Assembly: GCA_000697355.1 (NCBI GenBank) | Contig: JNEN01001227.1 | Coordinates: 124,001 to 188,000, forward strand | Direction of reading: 5' to 3' | Source: Syncephalastrum monosporum B8922 | Taxonomy: Eukaryota; Mucoromycota; Mucoromycetes; Mucorales; Syncephalastraceae | Length of the DNA stretch: 64,000 nucleotides | In this document: in pieces, positions 6,563-36,962 of the stretch | Layout of the letters: every line of letters starts with the position of its first letter | How positions within the stretch are numbered: the stretch's first letter is position 1 | Position numbers and translations under genes: made by a program | The notes under the pieces: generated by a model | Database searches by the model: none | What the model was told of the DNA's origin: nothing | What the model saw: the letters and a program-made list of their open reading frames with translations, nothing else

Positions 6563-9500
6563 ATGAAAAGATCGTTCAATACACGCGACCACCTTTCGCA
6601 ACACGGCAAGAGAATCTGCTCTGAATCTCAGCAATCGCAAGAAGCACACCAAACTCCCACTCTGGCTATCAACGATCGCGACGCAGCGGACAACAACAGC
6701 AGCAGTAGCAGCAGCAGTAGCAGCAGTATAAATAGCAGTAATCCTCATAATATTAACAACAGCGCTCCAAGCTCACCGGACATCCGCCCAGCAACACACA
6801 CCAACGACTCCGAGACAACGACACCGTGCCCATCGTCCACTATGAGTGCTGTCGTGCTTGACTATGTGCATGACATTGTGCAGGATCTGGATCAAGGCCA
6901 TCTCGATCGCTGTCTGAGTAAACACCTCGCGCGTGATACCCTCGACAACCTCCACCCGCCAGACGCCGAACTCGCCTCTTCCCTCGACGCCGCCCTGAAA
7001 AGCATCGCTCAGCGCCAGTTGATGCTGCAGACAGAAAACTTACGATACCGGATAGCCATTCAACAGCAGCACCAGTTGCTGACCGCCCAGCATGAGCAAC
7101 ACGCGGAAGACAAGAAGGACGACGAGCCTGCACCCAGGACGTCAACCACCAACGATGAGACCGCTTCCCGCAAAAACTCGCTTGTCACGCCCGAAGACGG
7201 CATCTCCACCATCAAGGACTCCTCTATGCTCGATAAAATGCATCACTCTTGTACTTCTCAGAACCGCAGCCCCCACCCGCCCGCTTCCAACACCAATGCT
7301 ACGCAATCCACCGGTTACTTCTGTAAGCTTTCTTTCCTTTCCTTTTCCTTTTCTTTTGTTTGTCCAAGACACACATCTTCTGAAACGTCTTGTTTGTGTC
7401 GTCATAGCGATGCCCACGGCTACGGCGACTGCTGCTGCTGGCTCATCAAGCACTCCGCCGTCCGTTGGCCATCAATCACCGTTTACCATTGCTTCGACTA
7501 CTACCGCTTATCCCGTTTACTTTGGCACTCTCTCTCCGCCCCTGCATTTCCCCGCCGCCTCCGATCAAACCTCTGCTGAAAACATCGTCTGCCCCGACTG
7601 CGTCGTTCAAGCCGTCAAGGTCGCCTCCGCTATCTTCAACGGTGACCTCGAGCAACGCGTGACCTGCACCCATGAACGCTGTGTTTCTTCTGGCAATACT
7701 ATGCACGCCTCTTCTCCGATCAATATGCTCAAAAATGCCGTCAACGCCATGACGAGTCGCCTGCAGCGCGTGGCGGACGATGCCACATACGTCGCGCATG
7801 AAACGGCCGTCAAGGGTAAACTCGGCGTCCAGGCCCGCTACACCCGCGAGATGAAGGGCGTCTGGCGTGATTTTCTGACAAACATGAACAGTATGACCCT
7901 CAACCATCTTCACCAAGTCCGTGACATCGCCGACGTTTCGACCGCTATTGCGAAAGGTGACCTAAGCAAGGCTATTACCGTTCCTGTTCGGGGTGAAACA
8001 CTTGTCCTGAAAAACACATTCAACACCATGGGTATTAGATTTTCGTTTGCTCTTTAGTAAGCGCTAACATTTTTTCGTGTTATGTGCTATTGCAGTCAAT
8101 CAACTCAACTTGTTTGCGTCTGAGGTATCTCGTGTCGCACATCATGTCGGAACCGAAGGCAAACTGGGTGCACAAGCAACGGTGGCGGGCGCCGACGGCA
8201 TATGGAAAGAACTCACGGATAATGTCAACACCATGGCTGCCAACCTCACGAACCAAGTCCGAGATATTGCTCAAGTATCCAAGTCGGTAGCACGTGGCGA
8301 CCTGACCAAAAAGGTCACGGTCGAAGTACGTGGCGAAATGCTGGATTTAAAAAATACCATCAACACTATGGTCGATCAAGTACGCTTTCTTAGTCTTGCA
8401 TGGCCTTACATGCATGTGCAGGATACAAGTGCTCATTTTGCCTATTAGCTGTCAACATTTGCTACCGAAGTCACGCGTGTTTCACTCGAAGTAGGCACGG
8501 ACGGTATATTGGGCGGCCAAGCAATCGTCAAAGACGTGGCTGGTACATGGAAAGATTTGACAGACAACGTGAATATGATGGCCGATAGGATCACGGGTCA
8601 AGTGCGTGACATTGCTGTGGTTGCCAAAGCCGTCGCATGCGGTGATCTCAGCAAAAAGGTGACGGCCAATGCGCAAGGAGAGGTGCTTGAACTCAAAGAT
8701 ACCATGAATACAATGGTAAGGGTGTTTTTTTTAATGCACGCACGTGCTATGACCTGACTCGATCCATTTTAGGTGGACCAGCTGATTCTGTTTTCCGCCG
8801 AGGTACGGCGTGTATCACTTGAAGTTGGCGTCGAAGGTAAACTTGGCGGCCAGGCTGTCGTCAAGGACGTCGGCGGCGCCTGGAAAGATCTGACGGATAA
8901 TGTCAATACCATGGCGGCCAATCTTACGACCCAGGTGCGATCTATCGCGGGTGTGACAAAGGCAGTCGCCATGGGCGACCTCTCCAAGAAGATTGACGTC
9001 GAAACACGAGGCGAAATTTTAGACCTCAAGAATACGGTGAACGACATGGTAGACCAGCTACGAGTCTTTTCGACCGAAGTCACTCGGGTCGCCAAGGAAG
9101 TCGGCACCGAAGGAAAACTGGGTGGGCAGGCGCGTGTGCCCAATGTGGGCGGGACCTGGAAAGATTTGACTGACAACGTCAATACTATGGCAACCAATCT
9201 CACGACGCAAGTGCGGTCGATTGCAGTCGTCACCAAAGCCGTCGCCAACGGTGATTTATCCAAGAAAGTGGTGGTCGACGTCAGTGGTGAAATTTCGGAC
9301 CTCAAGGATACGGTCAACAACATGGTCGACCAGCTTCGGGTATTCTCGACCGAGGTGACGCGTGTCGCCCGTGAAGTCGGCACCGAAGGCAAGCTCGGCG
9401 GTGTGGCGCATGTTCCGAGCGTGAGCGGGACCTGGAAAGACCTGACAGACAATGTCAATACCATGGCGGCCAACCTAACGACTCAAGTGAGATCGATTGC

Positions 9501-12500
9501 TGAGGTCACCAAAGCCGTGGCGAAGGGTGACCTCAGCAAAAAGATCGATGTTGAGACTCGGGGTGAAATCCTAGATCTCAAAAACACAGTCAACAACATG
9601 GTTGACCAGCTCAATGTGTTTGCGGCCGAAGTCACACGTGTGGCCAAGGAAGTTGGCACTGACGGCAAGCTCGGTGGCCAGGCCATGGTTCCGAACGTAG
9701 ACGGTACCTGGATGGATTTGACAGACAATGTCAATCAAATGGCGGCCAATTTGACAACACAAGTGCGGTCCATTGCTGAAGTCACCAAGTCGGTTGCGAA
9801 CGGTGACTTGTCTAAAAAGATTGAAATCGAAACGCGCGGTGAAATTCTGGAGCTCAAGAACATCGTGAACGACATGGTGGATCAGCTCCGTGTCTTCGCG
9901 GCTGAAGTCACCCGTGTCGCGAAAGAAGTCGGCACTGAGGGTTTACTCGGTGGCCAGGCTGTGGTACCTAACGTAGGTGGTACCTGGATGGATTTAACGG
10001 ATAACGTGAACCACATGGCTGCCAACTTGACAACCCAAGTGCGATCCATTGCCGAGGTGACTAAAGCCGTTGCACACGGCGACTTATCGAAAAAGATCGA
10101 GGTCGAAACCCGAGGCGAGATCTTGGAGCTCAAAGATATTGTAAACAACATGGTGGACCAGCTGCGTGTGTTTGCATCCGAAGTCACGCGCGTGTCTAAA
10201 GAAGTCGGAACCGAGGGCAAATTAGGCGGCCAAGCTATTGTCCAAGGTGTAGCAGGCACGTGGCATGAGTTGACAGATAACGTCAACATCATGGCAGCCA
10301 ATTTGACGAACCAGGTGCGATCGATTGCCGAGGTGACAAAGGCCGTCGCGCTAGGCGATCTATCAAAGAAGATCGAGGTGGAAAGTGGCGGCGAAATACT
10401 CGAGCTCAAGAACATTGTCAACAACATGGTGGATCAGCTTCGTATCTTTGCGTCCGAAGTGACACGTGTGTCAAAAGAAGTTGGCACGGAAGGAAAGCTG
10501 GGTGGCCAGGCGGTCGTCAAGGGTGTTGCTGGCACCTGGATGGATCTTACAGATAACGTCAATCAAATGGCGGCTAATCTGACAACGCAGGTGCGGTCGA
10601 TCGCTGAAGTCACCAAGGCTGTTGCGCTCGGTGATTTATCCAAAAAGATCGACGTCGAGACGCGTGGAGAGATCCTCGAGCTCAAGAATATCGTCAACGA
10701 CATGGTGGATCAACTGCGCATTTTCGCCTCCGAGGTGACACGTGTGTCGAAAGAAGTCGGAACCGAAGGCAAACTAGGTGGCCAAGCCGTGGTGAAGGGA
10801 GTCGCCGGAACGTGGTACGAGTTGACCGACAACGTCAACATCATGGCGGCCAACTTGACGAACCAGGTGCGATCGATTGCCGAGGTGACAAAGGCCGTCG
10901 CGCTAGGCGATCTATCAAAGAAAATCGAGGTGGAAAGTGGCGGCGAAATACTTGAGCTCAAGAACATTGTCAACAACATGGTGGATCAGCTTCGTATCTT
11001 TGCGTCCGAAGTGACGCGTGTCTCTAAGGAAGTCGGCACAGAAGGCAAACTCGGCGGTCAGGCTGTCGTGCAAGGTGTGGCAGGCACATGGAATGAACTG
11101 ACGGACAACGTCAATATTATGGCAGCCAACCTTACAAGTCAAGTGCGGTCGATTGCTGAGGTCACGAAAGCGGTCGCTTTGGGCGACTTGTCTAAAAAGA
11201 TTGAAGTGGAAAGCGGCGGCGAGATCCTCGAACTCAAGAACATCGTGAACGACATGGTAGATCAGCTTCGCGTGTTTGCCTCCGAAGTGACGCGTGTCTC
11301 TAAGGAAGTCGGCACCGAAGGCAAACTAGGTGGTCAAGCAGTCGTGCAAGGCGTCGCAGGCACATGGAACGAGCTGACAGACAATGTCAATATCATGGCT
11401 GCCAATTTGACCACGCAGGTCCGATCGATTGCAGAGGTGACCAAAGCAGTCGCTAGTGGTGACCTTTCGAAAAAGATCGAAGTTGAGACGCGCGGTGAAA
11501 TCCTGGACCTCAAGAACATCGTGAATGACATGGTTGACCAACTCCGTGTGTTCGCGTCCGAGGTGACGCGTGTAGCTCGCGAGGTCGGTACTGAAGGAAA
11601 ATTGGGTGGTCAAGCCGTGGTCTACGGCGTGGCCGGTACCTGGATGGATCTGACTATGAATGTCAACACGATGGCCGCCAATCTAACAACTCAAGTACGT
11701 TCGATTGCCCAAGTCACCAAGGCGGTCGCAAGCGGTGATTTATCGGAAAAGATTGACGTCGAGACACGTGGTGAAATCTTGGACCTCAAGAATACAGTGA
11801 ACAACATGGTCGACCAGCTGCGTGTATTCGCGGCTGAGGTGACGCGCGTGTCGAAGGAAGTCGGTACTGAAGGCCAGTTAGGCGGTCAAGCCATGGTGGA
11901 AGGCGTGGCAGGTACCTGGAAGGACCTTACGGACAATGTCAATACGATGGCTGCCAATTTGACAACGCAGGTGCGGTCAATTGCTCAAGTCACCAAGGCT
12001 GTTGCGCTTGGTGATTTATCCAAAAAGATCGACGTCGAGACGCGTGGAGAGATCCTCGAGCTCAAGAACATTGTCAATGACATGGTGGATCAACTGCGCA
12101 TTTTCGCCTCCGAGGTGACACGTGTGTCGAAAGAAGTCGGAACCGAAGGCAAACTAGGTGGCCAAGCCGTGGTGAAGGGAGTCGCCGGAACGTGGTACGA
12201 GTTGACCGACAACGTCAACATCATGGCGGCCAACTTGACGAACCAGGTGCGATCGATTGCCGAGGTGACAAAGGCCGTCGCGCTAGGCGATCTATCAAAG
12301 AAAATCGAGGTGGAAAGTGGCGGTGAAATACTCGAGCTCAAGAACATTGTCAACAACATGGTGGATCAGCTCCGTATCTTTGCCTCCGAAGTGACGCGTG
12401 TCTCTAAGGAAGTTGGCACAGAAGGCAAACTAGGTGGTCAGGCTGTCGTGCAAGGTGTGGCAGGCACATGGAATGAACTGACGGACAATGTCAATATCAT

Positions 12501-15288
12501 GGCAGCCAACCTTACAAGTCAAGTGCGGTCGATAGCCGAAGTGACCAAAGCTGTAGCCAACGGTGATTTATCCAAGAAGATTCATGTCGAGACGCGTGGT
12601 GAGATCCTGGATCTCAAAAACACGGTGAACAACATGGTGGATCAACTTCGGGTATTTTCCACCGAGGTCACCCGCGTTGCGCGCGAAGTCGGTACCGAAG
12701 GCAAACTCGGTGGACAGGCCATTGTCCAAGGCGTGGCTGGCACCTGGAAGGATCTGACAGATAATGTCAACATGATGGCCGGCAACTTGACGACCCAGGT
12801 GCGATCGATTGCGACCGTGACCACTGCGGTTGCCCGAGGTGATCTTTCACGCAAAATTGTTGTGGAAGTCCAAGGCGAGATTCTGGAGCTCAAGTAAGTC
12901 GAATAATATCTGCGTGCTTAAGATGGATACTAACCAAACTGTAGGGATACGGTGAATTCCATGGTGGACCAGCTCCGTGTCTTTGCGGCAGAAGTGACAC
13001 GTGTGGCACGGGAAGTCGGTACCGAGGGTATGCTTGGCGGTCAAGCGGCGATTATCGGCGTCGACGGCACGTGGAAGGACTTGACGGATAATGTCAACTT
13101 GATGGCGAGCAATCTGACAGACCAGCTACGCGCGATCGCGGCCGTGTGTAAAGCCGTCGCTCAAGGTGATCTCTCGAAAAAGATCGAAGTCGAGGTGCAC
13201 GGCGAGATTGCCGAGCTCAAGAACACGATTAATACCATGGTGGACCAGCTCAACTCGTTTGCGTTTGAGGTGACGCGCGTTGCCCGCGAGGTCGGCACTG
13301 AAGGCAATCTGGGTGTCGAGGCACGAGTCAAAGGCGTAGGTGGCGTCTGGCTGGAGATTACGAGTAATGTCAACACGATGGCATCCAATCTGACGACGCA
13401 GGTTCGTGCGTTTGCGCAAATTTCAGCGGCCGCGACCGAAAACGACTTCTCTCGCCTTATTACTGTCGAAGCATCCGGTGAGATGGACGCCTTGAAAACC
13501 AAGATCAATCAGATGGTTGGATCGCTGCGGGAAGCAATCCGAAAGAATGGTCAAGCTCGTGAGGCGGCTGAACTAGCCAACCGGTCCAAGAGCGAGTTCC
13601 TGGCTAACATGTCACATGAGATTCGCACCCCCATGAATGGCATTATCGGCATGACATCGCTGACCCTCGAAACGGAGTTGACACGCCAGCAGCGCGAGAA
13701 TCTGATGATCGTGTCCAGTCTCGCCAACAGCTTGCTGACCATCATTGATGATATCCTGGATATCTCGAAGATCGAAGCGGGTCGCATGACAATGGAGACC
13801 ATCCCGTTCTCGCTGCGATCCCAGATGTTTAGCGTCCTCAAAACCCTGGCTGTCAAGGCCAACCAAAAGAAGCTTGATCTAGTCTACAAGGTGGATCAAA
13901 ATATTCCAGATCAGCTCATTGGCGATCCATTCCGGTTGCGCCAGGTAGTCACCAACCTGATTGGCAACGCGGTCAAGTTCACGACTACAGGTGAAGTCGC
14001 ACTAGAGACCGAGGTCCTCAAAGTGGAAGGCGACATGGTGGACCTGCGCCTGTGCGTGAGTGATACAGGCATTGGCATCCATGAAGACAAACTACACGTT
14101 ATCTTTGACACGTTCTGCCAAGCGGACGGGAGCACAACGTAAGTGATATCAGAAAGCAAGAAACAGGTTTTCTGTCGTGTCACAAGGAACTCATCTCCGG
14201 TTTTAGACGTGAATATGGTGGTACAGGCCTTGGTTTGTCGATCTCCAAGCACTTGGTACAGCTAATGGGTGGCGACCTTTGGGTTGAATCCAATTACGGC
14301 CACGGATCTCGATTTTATTTTACCATGAAACTGCGGCGTTTCCCAATCAACGAAAAAGAGATTACTGAACGTATGAAGCGTTTCCAGAGCCGCCGCATTC
14401 TGTATGTTGACAGCGTTCGTGCTGCGGCCGACGCGTTGGCCAAGGTGGAGCAACTGGGCCTGCATGCCTTCCGCGTTGGCAACGTCGAAGAAGCGACCGA
14501 ACTCGCGAACCGATACGCAAGCAAGAGCAAGCATACGCCGTTCTTTGATACAGTTGTCATTGACAAAATGGTTCAGGCTGAAAAGATACGCGAAATTGTA
14601 CCGCTTCGCTATACCCCGATCGTTCTCATTGCACCCGAGCCTCACCTTCTCAACATGAAGCTGTGTATTGACCTAGGCATCACGGGGTACATCAATGCGC
14701 CGCGTAACATGGCTGACTTGGCCGATGCGCTCCAGCCTGCCCTGGAAAGTCACGCCGCCCTCCCTAGCGACGCGACCAAAACCGTCCCTCTCGAGATTCT
14801 GTTGGCCGAAGACAATGTGGTGAACCAGAAGCTGGCGGTGCGCATCTTGCAAAAGTTCGGGCACAATGTCAAGACGGTGGGCAACGGCAAGCTGGCTGTC
14901 GATGCCTTTGAATCACAGCATTTTGATCTGATCCTAATGGATGTCCAGATGCCCGTCATGGGTGGTTTTGAGGCGACGCAGCGCATACGGCAGATAGAAC
15001 GAGAAACTGGCGCCAGTCGGATACCCATCATCGCTTTGACTGCGCACGCCATGATCGGAGATCGTGAAAAATGCCTTGAGTCTGGCATGGTAAGCAGGAA
15101 TAAGACTAAAAAAATAATCAGAACGAAGGAGCTCACCCAGTAATTAGGATGAATACGTGACTAAGCCGCTGCGGTTCCCCGAACTGATTTCTGCGATCAA
15201 GAAGTTTGCCCCTCATTCCGCCCATGTGATGATGCAAGAACAACAACAAAAACAGTCTTCACCGCAGGCGCAGCAGCAATCGCGGTAG
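6563..15288 (+). CDS. Group III hybrid histidine kinase (Nik1/Os-1 type) with 20-unit poly-HAMP array
   Basis: Eight exons (6563-7322, 7408-8031, 8096-8379, 8449-8715, 8773-12893, 12945-14138, 14207-15089, 15148-15288) join in phase to 2757 aa. The N-terminus (about 1-330) is Ser/Gln-rich and low-complexity. Then come 20 tandem units of about 92 aa, each with a T-D-N-V-N-like core and a G-D-L-S-K-K segment (poly-HAMP), to about residue 2210. The HisKA H-box is [11 protein letters not shown] with His near 2243. The HATPase shows [16 protein letters not shown] and GTGLGLS. A degenerate receiver-like segment follows, then a true receiver with [10 protein letters not shown] (Asp near 2662), ALTAHA and YVTKPL. 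Family knowledge: these cytosolic kinases sense osmotic stress, signal to the HOG pathway and mediate sensitivity to phenylpyrrole/dicarboximide fungicides. Ascomycete members usually carry about five or six such units, so this one is greatly enlarged. No transmembrane segment is seen. Confidence 0.95.
10621..11130 (+). repeat. Copy A of near-identical 510-bp block in HAMP array
   Basis: This stretch matches 12001-12510 almost base for base, exactly 1380 nt (five units) downstream. There are only scattered synonymous differences, and roughly 240 nt from about 10700 are without any difference I can see. Other units differ from each other at many third positions, so the block was copied or homogenised recently. 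Confidence 0.9.
12001..12510 (+). repeat. Copy B of near-identical 510-bp block in HAMP array
   Basis: Downstream partner of the block at 10621-11130, lying five repeat units away. The flanking units diverge on both sides, so either a five-unit tandem duplication or a gene-conversion tract would explain it. Confidence 0.9.
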
Positions 15289-32709: not shown

Positions 32710-34434
32710 ATGTTAATAATCGCCGCAGTCTATGTCGGGTTGTATGTCTGGCTATCTTTATTAGGAGAAGCCGCACCGTCCATGTCCAGTACGGTGCATT
32801 ATTTCGATCTGAATATTACACGCGATTGGATTGACCCCGACTGCTCCGGCTTCAGCGCGCCGGTCTTAGTCGCGAACCATCAGATGCCAGGGCCGACGAT
32901 CCGCGTGAAGCGGGGCGACCGCGTCCACATCACGGTGCGCAACCTTCTCTGGAACGAACCTGCCGTCAGCCCGAATGTGACCCACCCTGGTGCCGGCATG
33001 AACGCAATTTCAATTCATTTCCACGGCATCCGCCAGTATGGCTCGATCCAAGCGGACGGCGTGCCAGGCTTGACCCAACCCGTTATTCCCCCCGGCGCCG
33101 AGTTCATCCACGAGTTCAGTGTCGTGAATCAAGCCGGCACCTATTTCTACCATGCCCACGTTGGACTCCAAGAGCAAAGTCTCTTTGGACCCTTTATTGT
33201 CGACGAAGAGGCATCGGAAAATAATCACGAAATCAAGCATGCCGGACCCTATACGTACGACGACGAGCGGACGCTCACCTTGAGCGAGTGGTGGCAGCGC
33301 GACCGGGCCGAGTTTGAAGATTTTCTGCTGAGCCCTCATTTTAACTACATCCCCGAAGCCGACAGCGTCTTGATCAACGGTCGCACGGTCATGGACTCCA
33401 ACCGGCCCGTGCCAAACACGTGTCCAGGCTATCCGGTCGTGGATGTGGATCCGGGCAAGACCTATCGACTCCGCGTGATCGCCGCCGCCACGTTCCGCAC
33501 CTTTGGGTTTAGCATTGATGGGCACAATATGACCATCATTGAAGTCGACGGTGAGTTGATCGAGCCGTACGAGACGTCGTTTTTGGAGGTCGCGCCGGGC
33601 CAGCGATTTTCGGTTCTACTCCACACACACCACCACCACGTCGGACGTGATCTCACTGTAGCGACCTACCGGCGCTGGGCTGAGGGTATCGACACATCCT
33701 CCAACGGGCTCGCTGTGTTGCGTTACAGTGGGGAAAAGGACACACCTATATTCTATGCGCCTGAACGGCCCATCTTTCCTACCGACTTGTCACCGCACTG
33801 GATCTGGAACGAGCTGAAGCCGCTGCATGGCGTAGACCCAGTCGCACGCGGAGACGATGCGCGTGTGGTCAAGTTGCGTTCCACCGACCAAGCCTTGCCG
33901 GACGGCCGCGTGCGGTGGTTTATCAACGGTGTGTCATTCAGCGATCCCGAAGAGCCTTTACTGTACCAGCTTCGATCAGGTAAGCGGCGGAGGCCGATGT
34001 ATGGACGGCTCCAGAACGGCTACGATCCGTTTCTCGGGACATATCCGCTGTCCTACTACGAGACGGTCGATTTCGTATTGCAAGCGACGCACGTACCGGG
34101 CGAGCCGTGCCGGTCACATCCGTGGCACACCCACGGCCATTCGCACTGGGAGATTGCGTACGGCGCAGGCGAGTATGACGAGGCGCGCGACGGCAAACTG
34201 CGCAATGTACCGCATCCGATCCAGAAAGATATCACGCTCGTCTACCCACAAATTGATCCTGCTCTCGAAGTCGCAAACGGTACGCTGCGCAAAGAGGTCG
34301 TTGGGTGCGGTTGGTCCAAGATCCGGATTTTGGCAGATAATCCTGGGTTCTGGGCCATGCATTGCCACAACACGCCGCATATGCTGATGGGCATGATGCT
34401 CGCGCTGGAAGAAGCTCCTGAACTCATTCAATAG
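32710..34434 (+). CDS. Secreted/anchored multicopper oxidase (laccase/ferroxidase-like)
   Basis: Intronless frame, 574 aa from the ATG at 32710, which begins a hydrophobic signal or anchor sequence (L-I-I-A-A-V-Y-V-G-L-Y-V-W-L). The frame is open back to 32596. Three cupredoxin domains are expected. All four copper motifs are present: I-H-F-H-G-I, Y-F-Y-H-A-H-V, H-P-W-H-T-H-G-H, and H-C-H-N-T-P-H-M-L-M-G-M near the C-terminus. Type 1, 2 and 3 copper ligands are therefore complete, so the enzyme should couple one-electron oxidation of a substrate (phenols, Fe(II) or similar) to reduction of oxygen to water. The residue ten after the T1 Cys is Met, an axial ligand typical of lower-potential T1 sites. 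No dedicated ferroxidase partner (FTR1) lies nearby, so laccase versus ferroxidase is undecided. Confidence 0.9.
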   Translation: MLIIAAVYVGLYVWLSLLGEAAPSMSSTVHYFDLNITRDWIDPDCSGFSAPVLVANHQMPGPTIRVKRGDRVHITVRNLLWNEPAVSPNVTHPGAGMNAISIHFHGIRQYGSIQADGVPGLTQPVIPPGAEFIHEFSVVNQAGTYFYHAHVGLQEQSLFGPFIVDEEASENNHEIKHAGPYTYDDERTLTLSEWWQRDRAEFEDFLLSPHFNYIPEADSVLINGRTVMDSNRPVPNTCPGYPVVDVDPGKTYRLRVIAAATFRTFGFSIDGHNMTIIEVDGELIEPYETSFLEVAPGQRFSVLLHTHHHHVGRDLTVATYRRWAEGIDTSSNGLAVLRYSGEKDTPIFYAPERPIFPTDLSPHWIWNELKPLHGVDPVARGDDARVVKLRSTDQALPDGRVRWFINGVSFSDPEEPLLYQLRSGKRRRPMYGRLQNGYDPFLGTYPLSYYETVDFVLQATHVPGEPCRSHPWHTHGHSHWEIAYGAGEYDEARDGKLRNVPHPIQKDITLVYPQIDPALEVANGTLRKEVVGCGWSKIRILADNPGFWAMHCHNTPHMLMGMMLALEEAPELIQ

Positions 34435-34634
34435 CATGCATCCTTTCTCCTGTAAATTTTTTTTTGTATACCACGTATGTCATTTGTAATACACATCGCG
34501 CAAGCATATTAGATTATTTTTTTTTTCTTTTCCTTTTCGGCTGTATTCTCTCTCATGAATGGGCAAAGCGTTTTTGTTATTTTTTGCGATTGGGCTGTAA
34601 AAGAAAAAAAAAGGGTCAATCGATTTAATTAAAT

Positions 34635-36962
34635 CTAGTACACACGAGCGAAAGGAGGCACAGGCTTGCACTCGTTCTCATCCAGAGTGGTGTCAGTGAC
34701 GCCACGGTAGCTGAGCTTGACCTCGCCGGTCTCCTGGTTCTGCCATGACAGAGTGTGCTTCATCCATTTCTACAGGAAAAATTAATTAAAAAATCAGTAT
34801 CTGACGGCACCATCCGTCCAACCCTGAGCTTGCTTACCTCGTCATCACGGTTGGGGCAATCGTCACGGGCATGGGCACCACGCGACTCGGTACGGACAGC
34901 AGCGGCGTGCATGGTCTGAGCGGCACAGGTCAGGAGGTTCTGAAGCTCGAGGGTCTCGGTCAAGTCAGTGTTCCAGATCATGCCACGGTCGGTGACCTTG
35001 ACCTTGTCAAAGGTCTTGAAGACCTTGTCGATCTTCTCGACACCCTGGTCGAGGGTCTCCTGGGTACGGAAGACAGCAGCATCGGCCTGCATGACCTTCT
35101 GCATGCTCAGACGGATCTCGGCGGTGGAGAGCTCACCGTCGGCGTTGCGAAGCTTGTCGAGGTTGGCAATGGTGGCGGCACCGGCGTCAGCAGCGAAAGG
35201 CTTGAGGGGCGTGCCGGGCGAGGTCTTGGAAGCAATGTGGTGGGCGACGGCACGGCCGAAGACGACAATGTCGAGGAGCGAGTTGGCACCAAGACGGTTA
35301 GCACCGTGGACGGAGACACAGGCGGCCTCACCGGCGGCGTAAAGACCGGGCACGACCTTGTCATTGCCGTTCTCATCGACGGCGAGGACCTCACCGGTGT
35401 ACTTGGTGGGGATACCACCCATGTTGTAATGGACGGTGGGCAGGACGGGGATGGGCTCCTTGGTGACATCAACACCGGCAAAGATAGCGGCGGTCTCGGA
35501 GATACCAGGCAAGCGCTCGTGGAGGACCTCGGCGGGCAGATGGTGAAGCTGGAGGAAGATATGGTCCTTCTCCTCACCGACACCACGGCCCTCTTTGATT
35601 TCGAGAGTCATGGCACGCGAGACGACGTCACGCGAGGCGAGATCCTTGGCGGTCGGGGCATAGCGCTCCATGAAACGCTCACCGGCCGAGTTGATCAAGA
35701 TACCACCCTCACCACGCGAACCCTCGGTGATGAGACAGCCGGCACCGTAGATACCGGTGGGATGGAACTGGACGAACTCGAGATCCTGGAGAGGCAGACC
35801 GGCACGGGCGACCATGGCGTTACCGTCACCAGTGCAGGTGTGGGCGGAGGTGCACGAGAAGTAGGCACGGCCGTAACCACCGGTGGCGAGGACAGTGTTG
35901 TGGGCGCGGAAGCGATGGAGCGTGCCGTCCTCCATGTTCAGGGCAATGACACCCTTGCACTCACCGTCCTCCATGATGAGGTCGAGGGCAAAGTACTCGA
36001 TGAAGTAGTTGGTGTCGTGGCGGAGGGACTGGCCGTACAGGGTGTGCAGAATGGCGTGGCCGGTACGATCAGCGACGGCAGCGCAGCGGTAGGCCTGACC
36101 GCCCTTGCCGTACTTCAAGCTCTGACCACCGAAAGCACGCTGGTAGATCTTGCCCTCGGCCGTACGCGAGAAGGGCACACCGTAGTTCTCAAGCTCAACA
36201 ACGGTATGGGGCGCCTCGCGGCACATGTAGTGGATGGCGTCCTGGTCACCCAGCCAGTCGGAACCCTTGACGGTATCGTACATGTGCCATCTCCAGTCGT
36301 CTTCGGTCATGTTGCCCAGCGCAGCGTTGATACCACCCTACAGAGGACATGCAAGAATGAGGTGTGAATGGGTGCGTTTACACGGTATGACGGGATGCAA
36401 TGAAATGCAGTGCAGCGATATGGTATAATATGGTATGATATGGTACCTGAGCAGCGACGGTGTGCGAACGGGTAGGGAAGAGCTTGGTAATGCAGGCGGT
36501 GCGCTGACCGGCCTCGGCCAGACCGAAAGCGGCACGCAGACCGGCACCACCAGCACCCACGACGACGGCGTCGTACTCGTGGTCAATGACGGGGTACTTG
36601 CTGGCAATCGAGCCCTGCGCACACACAAATATATCAATTGACAGACGAAACAAACATCACGGCTATCCACTTACCGAGGCTTCCTTAGCGTTCAGCGGGT
36701 TGGTGGCCATGACACGCATGGCAGGCTTCGACTGGTGGAGACCACGGCGACCGACAACGGTACCTTCACATAGCAACGTTAGCATTCCATGCAGACATGA
36801 TTCGCAAGGGTGACGTACGGGTGGCTCGCGACTGTGTAGTTGCGTAAACAAGTGAGGGACGCGAAAAAAGGGAAGAAAATAAAACCGGTTAATGGGCAAT
36901 TCCAAATCAAGTCAATGACACATTACAGCCAAGGGCGAGGCATTCTGCATAAATTTGAGCAT
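34635..36962 (-). CDS. SDH1: Succinate dehydrogenase flavoprotein subunit (mitochondrial complex II)
   Basis: Six exons (36962-36927, 36831-36819, 36763-36675, 36614-36447, 36337-34838, 34769-34635) join in phase to 646 aa. The N-terminus [12 protein letters not shown] followed by basic residues (R-A-T-R, G-R-R) is a mitochondrial presequence, and it needs a 13-nt microexon. The FAD site [15 protein letters not shown] is present, as is the flavin-linking [22 protein letters not shown] and [10 protein letters not shown]. It oxidises succinate to fumarate in the TCA cycle, passing electrons to the SDH2 iron-sulphur subunit. Codon use is strongly biased, as in highly expressed genes, so the opposite strand is open over nearly the whole 1.5-kb exon; that antisense frame is not a gene. 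An ATG at 36792 is an alternative start that avoids the microexon but gives a poor presequence. Confidence 0.95.
36819..36831 (-). other. 13-nt microexon in SDH1 leader
   Basis: The minus-strand exon TCGCGAGCCACCC is flanked by a TACACAG acceptor and a GTACGT donor. It joins the first ATG-bearing exon to the presequence exon in phase, giving S-P-L-A then S-R-A-T-R. Without it the ATG at 36962 would not be in frame with the rest. Confidence 0.65.

Follow-up and report, generated by a model that had tools for sequence, protein, structure and literature searches.

The window, that is, the whole 64,000-nt stretch of Syncephalastrum monosporum B8922 DNA that was analysed, carries on its forward strand a gene for a group III-type hybrid histidine kinase with a long tandem array of HAMP units. 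Its eight exons (6563-7322, 7408-8031, 8096-8379, 8449-8715, 8773-12893, 12945-14138, 14207-15089 and 15148-15288) are bounded by GT/AG splice sites predicted from the sequence. The spliced translation corresponds to a CDS of 8274 nt and 2757 aa with a single, terminal stop, and 6563-15288 contains 0 ambiguous N bases. Among the matches listed, the closest homologues over the searched region are those of Zychaea mexicana (94%) and Circinella minor (93%). The features of the locus are the following:

6563..15288, + strand: gene for a group III-type hybrid histidine kinase, 2757 aa, 8 exons, frame open once spliced
7590..7682, + strand: C-x2-C-x21-C-x-H-x2-C in the unpaired first HAMP, residues 315-345 (motif search; predicted HAMP fold)
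7755..8715, + strand: units 1-3, introns at or near unit borders (own-repeat profile)
8773..12893, + strand: exon 5 (4121 nt), intron-free, 276-nt period; complete units 4-17 (14) plus 85 of the 92 residues of unit 18
10429..10980, + strand: units 10-11, with one copy (source or duplicate) of a 245-nt exact tract (base comparison of units)
11809..12360, + strand: units 15-16, with the other copy of the 245-nt tract, five units downstream (base comparison of units)
12637..13515, + strand: units 18-20, adjoining the kinase (array comparison)
13585..13782, + strand: HisKA with the phospho-acceptor H-box SHEIRTP (Pfam and motif location)
13921..14336, + strand: HATPase_c, spanning the intron 14139-14206 (Pfam; coordinates transferred by hand from the protein)
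14796..15201, + strand: receiver domain, spanning the intron 15090-15147 (Pfam; coordinates transferred by hand from the protein)

Searched with a profile of its own repeats, the protein yields 20 tandem units, ending at residue 2209, in agreement with the 20 consecutive units of about 92 aa read in the first-pass annotation. The lowest-scoring unit counted is unit 1, with 76 bits; a 21st match, at residues 320-341, scored -0.8 bits and was left out of the count. Units are spaced 92 aa apart in 18 of the 19 steps, the first step being 93. TRF independently found a period of 276 with 14.5 copies at 8821-12812, and Pfam HAMP matched 14 stretches in exon 5. The exact 276-nt period formerly claimed for this exon is therefore confirmed, while the fifteen units assigned to it have to be reduced to 14 complete ones and most of unit 18. 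The introns of the array fall in units 1-4 and 18, and its middle is a single exon.

Behind the array, HisKA, HATPase_c and receiver each score above the Pfam cut-off and the H, N, G1, G2, Asp and Lys motifs were located, so that the kinase and receiver motifs are intact, as had been stated before. Tandem 92-aa HAMP pairs at the N-terminal side, a HisKA with its H-box, a HATPase_c and a C-terminal receiver with Asp and Lys are all present, which supports the earlier assignment to group III. Pseudogene status is excluded, the frame being open, the motifs present and dN (given below) far lower than dS. About 30 residues lie between the end of unit 20 (2209) and the H-box (2242), and no GAF domain was found between the array and HisKA by Pfam on the scanned pieces of the protein. 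The gap from HATPase_c to the receiver is about 150 residues; in Drk1, a pseudo-receiver lies between these two domains according to the available text of PMC6433957. By hydropathy only, rather than by a dedicated predictor, the highest 19-residue value is 1.65 at residue 2272, within HisKA, a single window just above 1.6.

In a four-unit AlphaFold model, a monomer with pLDDT 43 that was used for the helix pattern only, each unit comprises two helices of about 30 residues and two connectors, one of 14 and one of 18 residues. Because of this pattern and the precedent of CaNik1, which is described in the accessible part of PMC3848655 as having four HAMP pairs plus one unpaired HAMP, each 92-aa unit appears most simply to be a pair of HAMPs. 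The protein would then hold about 41 HAMPs, consisting of 20 pairs and one unpaired HAMP ahead of unit 1. The nearest solved chains by sequence are the poly-HAMP constructs 9trk and 9trj, followed by Aer2 (3lnr, 4i3m, 4i44); 9trk is absent from the structure-match lists, an absence that is uninformative.

Within the array, units 11 and 16 are identical in 99% of bases, and the next most similar pairs in 88%. A 245-nt tract is repeated exactly at a distance of five units (10429-12360), the units in between having diverged, and this repeated tract is probably the product of a recent conversion or unequal exchange. An exact tract five units apart could mislead a short-read assembly, and assembly error might in this way have multiplied units, at most about one of which is in doubt. 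This is very improbable, as apart from units 11 and 16 no pair exceeds 88% of bases, the genome holds a paralogue with 21 units, and the rows for Zychaea, Circinella and Dichotomocladium have 20. The assembly duplication that had been named as a possible refutation of the unit count fails on the same ground, the second long gene of this genome and the assemblies of other species carrying the same array.

HAMP matches were found at three loci of the genome (27.5 Mb, 198 contigs), namely the window gene and the genes on contigs C146 and C70. The C146 paralogue has 21 units and 2773 aa, with an uncertain exon 1/2 junction, and the C70 gene (C70:39552-45236) has 10 units and 1666 aa in a splice model set by hand. 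The introns of the C70 gene are distributed through its array, and one of them is apparently a GC-AG intron. In kinase plus receiver, the window gene shares 73% identity with C146 and 56% with C70. In a kinase tree whose fungal kinases are all of the poly-HAMP kind, the window kinase joins those of Dikarya and Mucoromycota against those of bacteria (100/100); the window gene and C146 fall among the long arrays of Mucorales, which form a clade, whereas C70 is in a clade with short arrays. Many inner forks of this tree are weak, and two Kickxellales rows, in which the H-box pattern was not found, were dropped. The genome also has 10 HisKA matches, 9 of them above the cut-off, and two HPt matches, the better of which has an internal stop, perhaps an intron.

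Pairing the units of the window gene with those of C146 gave dN 0.047 and dS 1.98 for 14 pairs picked as best matches, dN 0.049 and dS 2.25 for the 11 pairs common to both pairing methods, and dN 0.059 and dS 2.36 for all 20 pairs of the unit alignment. The choice of best matches lowers the dN of the 14 pairs, although the other pairings changed little, and the dS of single units was often not computable. Strong purifying selection has thus acted between the two long paralogues. Since synonymous sites are saturated between paired units, a recent homogenisation that affected the array in its entirety is excluded. Frames at window positions 33001-36752 have relatives in the flank (C146:111500-121499) next to the C146 gene, the best with 82% over 427 aa, and this shared flank suggests an old segmental or genome duplication.

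Unit number in other genomes was taken from three homologue searches, each giving the best 120 of about 8000 scored proteins; candidates were bounded at 0.55-1.75 times the query length, so that the first search favours long proteins. The unit counts cover each of the 300 distinct proteins listed. Of 3742 steps between near-full units of 288 proteins, 3521 measure exactly 92 aa, and for this reason the spacing is not due to chance. A clade table was made from 77 rows of other genomes, hand-picked and non-random, with several rows from one species and gene models that are possibly truncated; the species are grouped by order and phylum. Two proteins used in the kinase tree, P0207 (Mortierella alpina, 938 aa, 4 units) and P0137 (Pyrenula, 5 units), are omitted from it.

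In this table, the Mucorales have 9-26 units with a median of 20 (42 rows), the Mortierellales 18-30 (seven rows), the Glomeromycotina 7-10 (five rows), Umbelopsis 7, 7 and 17 (three rows), the Zoopagomycota 11-34 (six rows, among them two Kickxellales with 32 and 34), Calcarisporiella 5 (one row), the Dikarya 5-28 (10 rows) and bacteria 10, 15 and 15 (three rows). Long arrays among the Dikarya are those of Calocera, Dacryopinax and Mycena (16-28 units), and short ones those of Saitoella, Rhodotorula, Sporobolomyces and Wallemia (5-7). Of the hand-picked Mucorales rows, 33 of 42 have at least 15 units and 29 of 42 at least 18, and the five with 9-10 units are of the C70 type. The long array is therefore common among the Mucorales rows and not a rarity in this clade, and the view of the first-pass annotation that it might be exceptional is not supported. 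A survey of related species with 15-20 units as the usual number had been named there as a refutation, and for Mucorales the table gives this outcome. The contrast drawn there with the five or six units of ascomycete Nik1/Os-1 proteins agrees with the repeat numbers that the available texts give for group III kinases: 5-7 (PMC5159414), five to six (PMC3848655) and six in Bos1 (PMC3418262). Mucorales and several other lineages do not conform to the cited range of 5-7 repeats. In the literature covered, which includes the available parts of PMC4965123, PMC3570549 and PMC12077210 and leaves out most subscription journals, a survey of how many repeats Mucoromycota have was not noticed, and no claim is made that such a survey is unpublished.

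Unit order was compared by aligning the arrays as strings of units. The 20 units of the window gene pair with 20 in Zychaea mexicana, Circinella minor and Dichotomocladium, and all of them pair with 20 of the 22 units of Apophysomyces. Reciprocal-best positional pairs were 10 of 20 in Zychaea, 10 of 20 in Circinella, 9 of 20 in Dichotomocladium and 17 of 20 in Apophysomyces. When the interior units of the partner were shuffled, 0 of 200 shuffles reached the observed score for C146, Zychaea, Circinella, Apophysomyces, Absidia, Rhizopus microsporus, Mucor lusitanicus, Helicostylum and Dichotomocladium. Unit order is thus common to the window gene and nine of the ten Mucorales arrays tested, its own paralogue included; Phycomyces does not share it (46 of 200 shuffles reach the score). 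Among the six arrays tested outside Mucorales, the order is not shared by Linnemannia (165/200), Coemansia (45/200) and Calocera (126/200), and weak signs of it are present in Umbelopsis (6/200), Mortierella alpina (3/200) and one bacterium (10/200). From these alignments, the long array with position-keeping units appears to be old within Mucorales. In 30 long arrays (29 Mucorales rows and C146), the best conserved unit is unit 19 (12964-13239), with a mean of 96%, and the least conserved is unit 1, with a mean of 73%.

These results bear on the idea that array length is neutral, with unequal crossing-over growing and shrinking the intron-free middle, selection purging only errors of frame and register, and 5 or 20 units being equivalent. 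The placement of the middle in one exon with introns confined to units 1-4 and 18, the presence of a recently copied tract and the differing unit numbers among Mucorales rows are in line with this idea; it is nevertheless unlikely, given that 9 of the 10 Mucorales arrays tested have retained the unit order and nearly the same length despite saturated synonymous sites.

Like the group III kinases of Dikarya (Nik1/Os-1, CaNik1, DhNik1, Bos1, TcsC, Drk1), the window protein has tandem 92-aa HAMP pairs, in the former sometimes with one unpaired, and HisKA, HATPase_c and receiver; it differs from them in its 20 units, against 5-7 in the available cited text (PMC5159414), and in the Cys motif of its first HAMP. 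It also shares the 92-aa period with bacterial poly-HAMP hybrid kinases (such as P0029 and P0061), whose arrays have 13-17 units in many rows. Most bacterial poly-HAMP rows, in contrast to the window gene, list the GAF family (PF13185) and have one 97-aa step. With the bacterial P0029, P0061, P0101 and P0229, the window units share 62-69% identity on average and the kinases only 41-42%, whereas with five Dikarya rows the units share 56-61% and the kinases 67-73%. Such a mismatch in sequence identity would mean either that the unit is under extreme constraint or that array and kinase have partly separate histories, and part of it may come from short arrays consisting of atypical end units. A tree of the units, built on 92 columns, left the root unplaced and does not discriminate between these two readings. 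Long bacterial HAMP arrays are reportedly treated by Dunin-Horkawicz and Lupas (2010).

Observed at the locus are 20 units in strict 92-aa register, a Cys/His-bearing unpaired HAMP ahead of them and the kinase and receiver directly behind. The window protein is probably the Mucorales form of the group III (Nik1/Os-1) hybrid histidine kinase, working as a soluble parallel-dimer HAMP rod that relays a signal to the kinase. As a soluble parallel dimer, it would stack its units into a rod of about 41 HAMP bundles and about 90 nm, reckoned from two helices of about 30 residues, or a rise of about 4.5 nm, per unit. Signal input, whether at the tip of the rod or somewhere along it, would shift the HAMP bundles, and the last units, adjoining the kinase, would toggle it between kinase and phosphatase. 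By analogy with Dikarya, as described in the accessible parts of PMC3848655, PMC5159414 and PMC6433957, this switch would set phosphotransfer to an HPt protein and the HOG pathway. The middle units would be mainly a register-keeping relay and the ends the input and output; a step of any other size would break the helix phase along the rod, and for this reason the exact period would be retained. Twenty units are not needed for the kinase as such, since Dikarya and Umbelopsis work with 5-7, and unit 1 is not favoured as a fixed input site because it is the least conserved. According to the available text of PMC3848655 and PMC5159414, CaNik1 without all its HAMPs leads to activated Hog1, and the switch of DhNik1 includes a HAMP4-HAMP5 contact. 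Relay studies, in the portions of the literature at hand, used one to a few HAMPs (Aer2, DhNik1, CaNik1). The fungal and bacterial kinases constitute a natural series of about 4 to 34 units in one register, in which the effect of length on transmission is directly testable.

Alternatively, the array could be mainly a scaffold or ruler whose many similar lateral faces bind partners or bundle dimers, signal relay being secondary. The likeness of many units, up to 99% of bases in window pairs, would suit repeated binding faces, as would a length that varies by species (9-26 in the Mucorales rows); this role is conceivable and rather doubtful, for a strict 92-aa register would be superfluous in a loose scaffold and the unit identities are kept in order.

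Returning to the signal-relaying rod, a concrete candidate for the point of signal entry in soluble kinases with no recognised input domain is the Cys/His motif of the first HAMP, a putative metal or redox cap at the rod tip. Among rows with an adequate N-terminus, C-x2-C-x21-C is present in 47 of the 50 from Mucoromycota and in none of the 6 from Dikarya. All 51 rows with the motif in place have at least four Cys/His, three positions being fixed and the others variable. Tentatively, and with a low likelihood, the Cys/His site of this Mucoromycota cap would staple the start of the first HAMP helix to the connector, and metal loss or thiol modification by oxidants or aldehydes would free the cap, the conformational change passing through about 40 HAMP bundles to the kinase. 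If so, the cap would make a soluble redox- or metal-gated long-range allosteric rod that replaces the membrane input of classical HAMP proteins. The ascomycete Drk1 is reported, in the available text of PMC6433957, to have reactive cysteines, at sites other than the cap motif.

At the N-terminus, the window gene (6563-6625) and the C146 protein both start with MKRS, followed by a further basic pair at about residue 17, which is a possible nuclear signal of the two long proteins. TcsC is nuclear through its N-terminus, as given in the accessible text of PMC11253588. Codons for a serine repeat with a 12-nt period are found at 6697-6726, where the N-terminus looks disordered.
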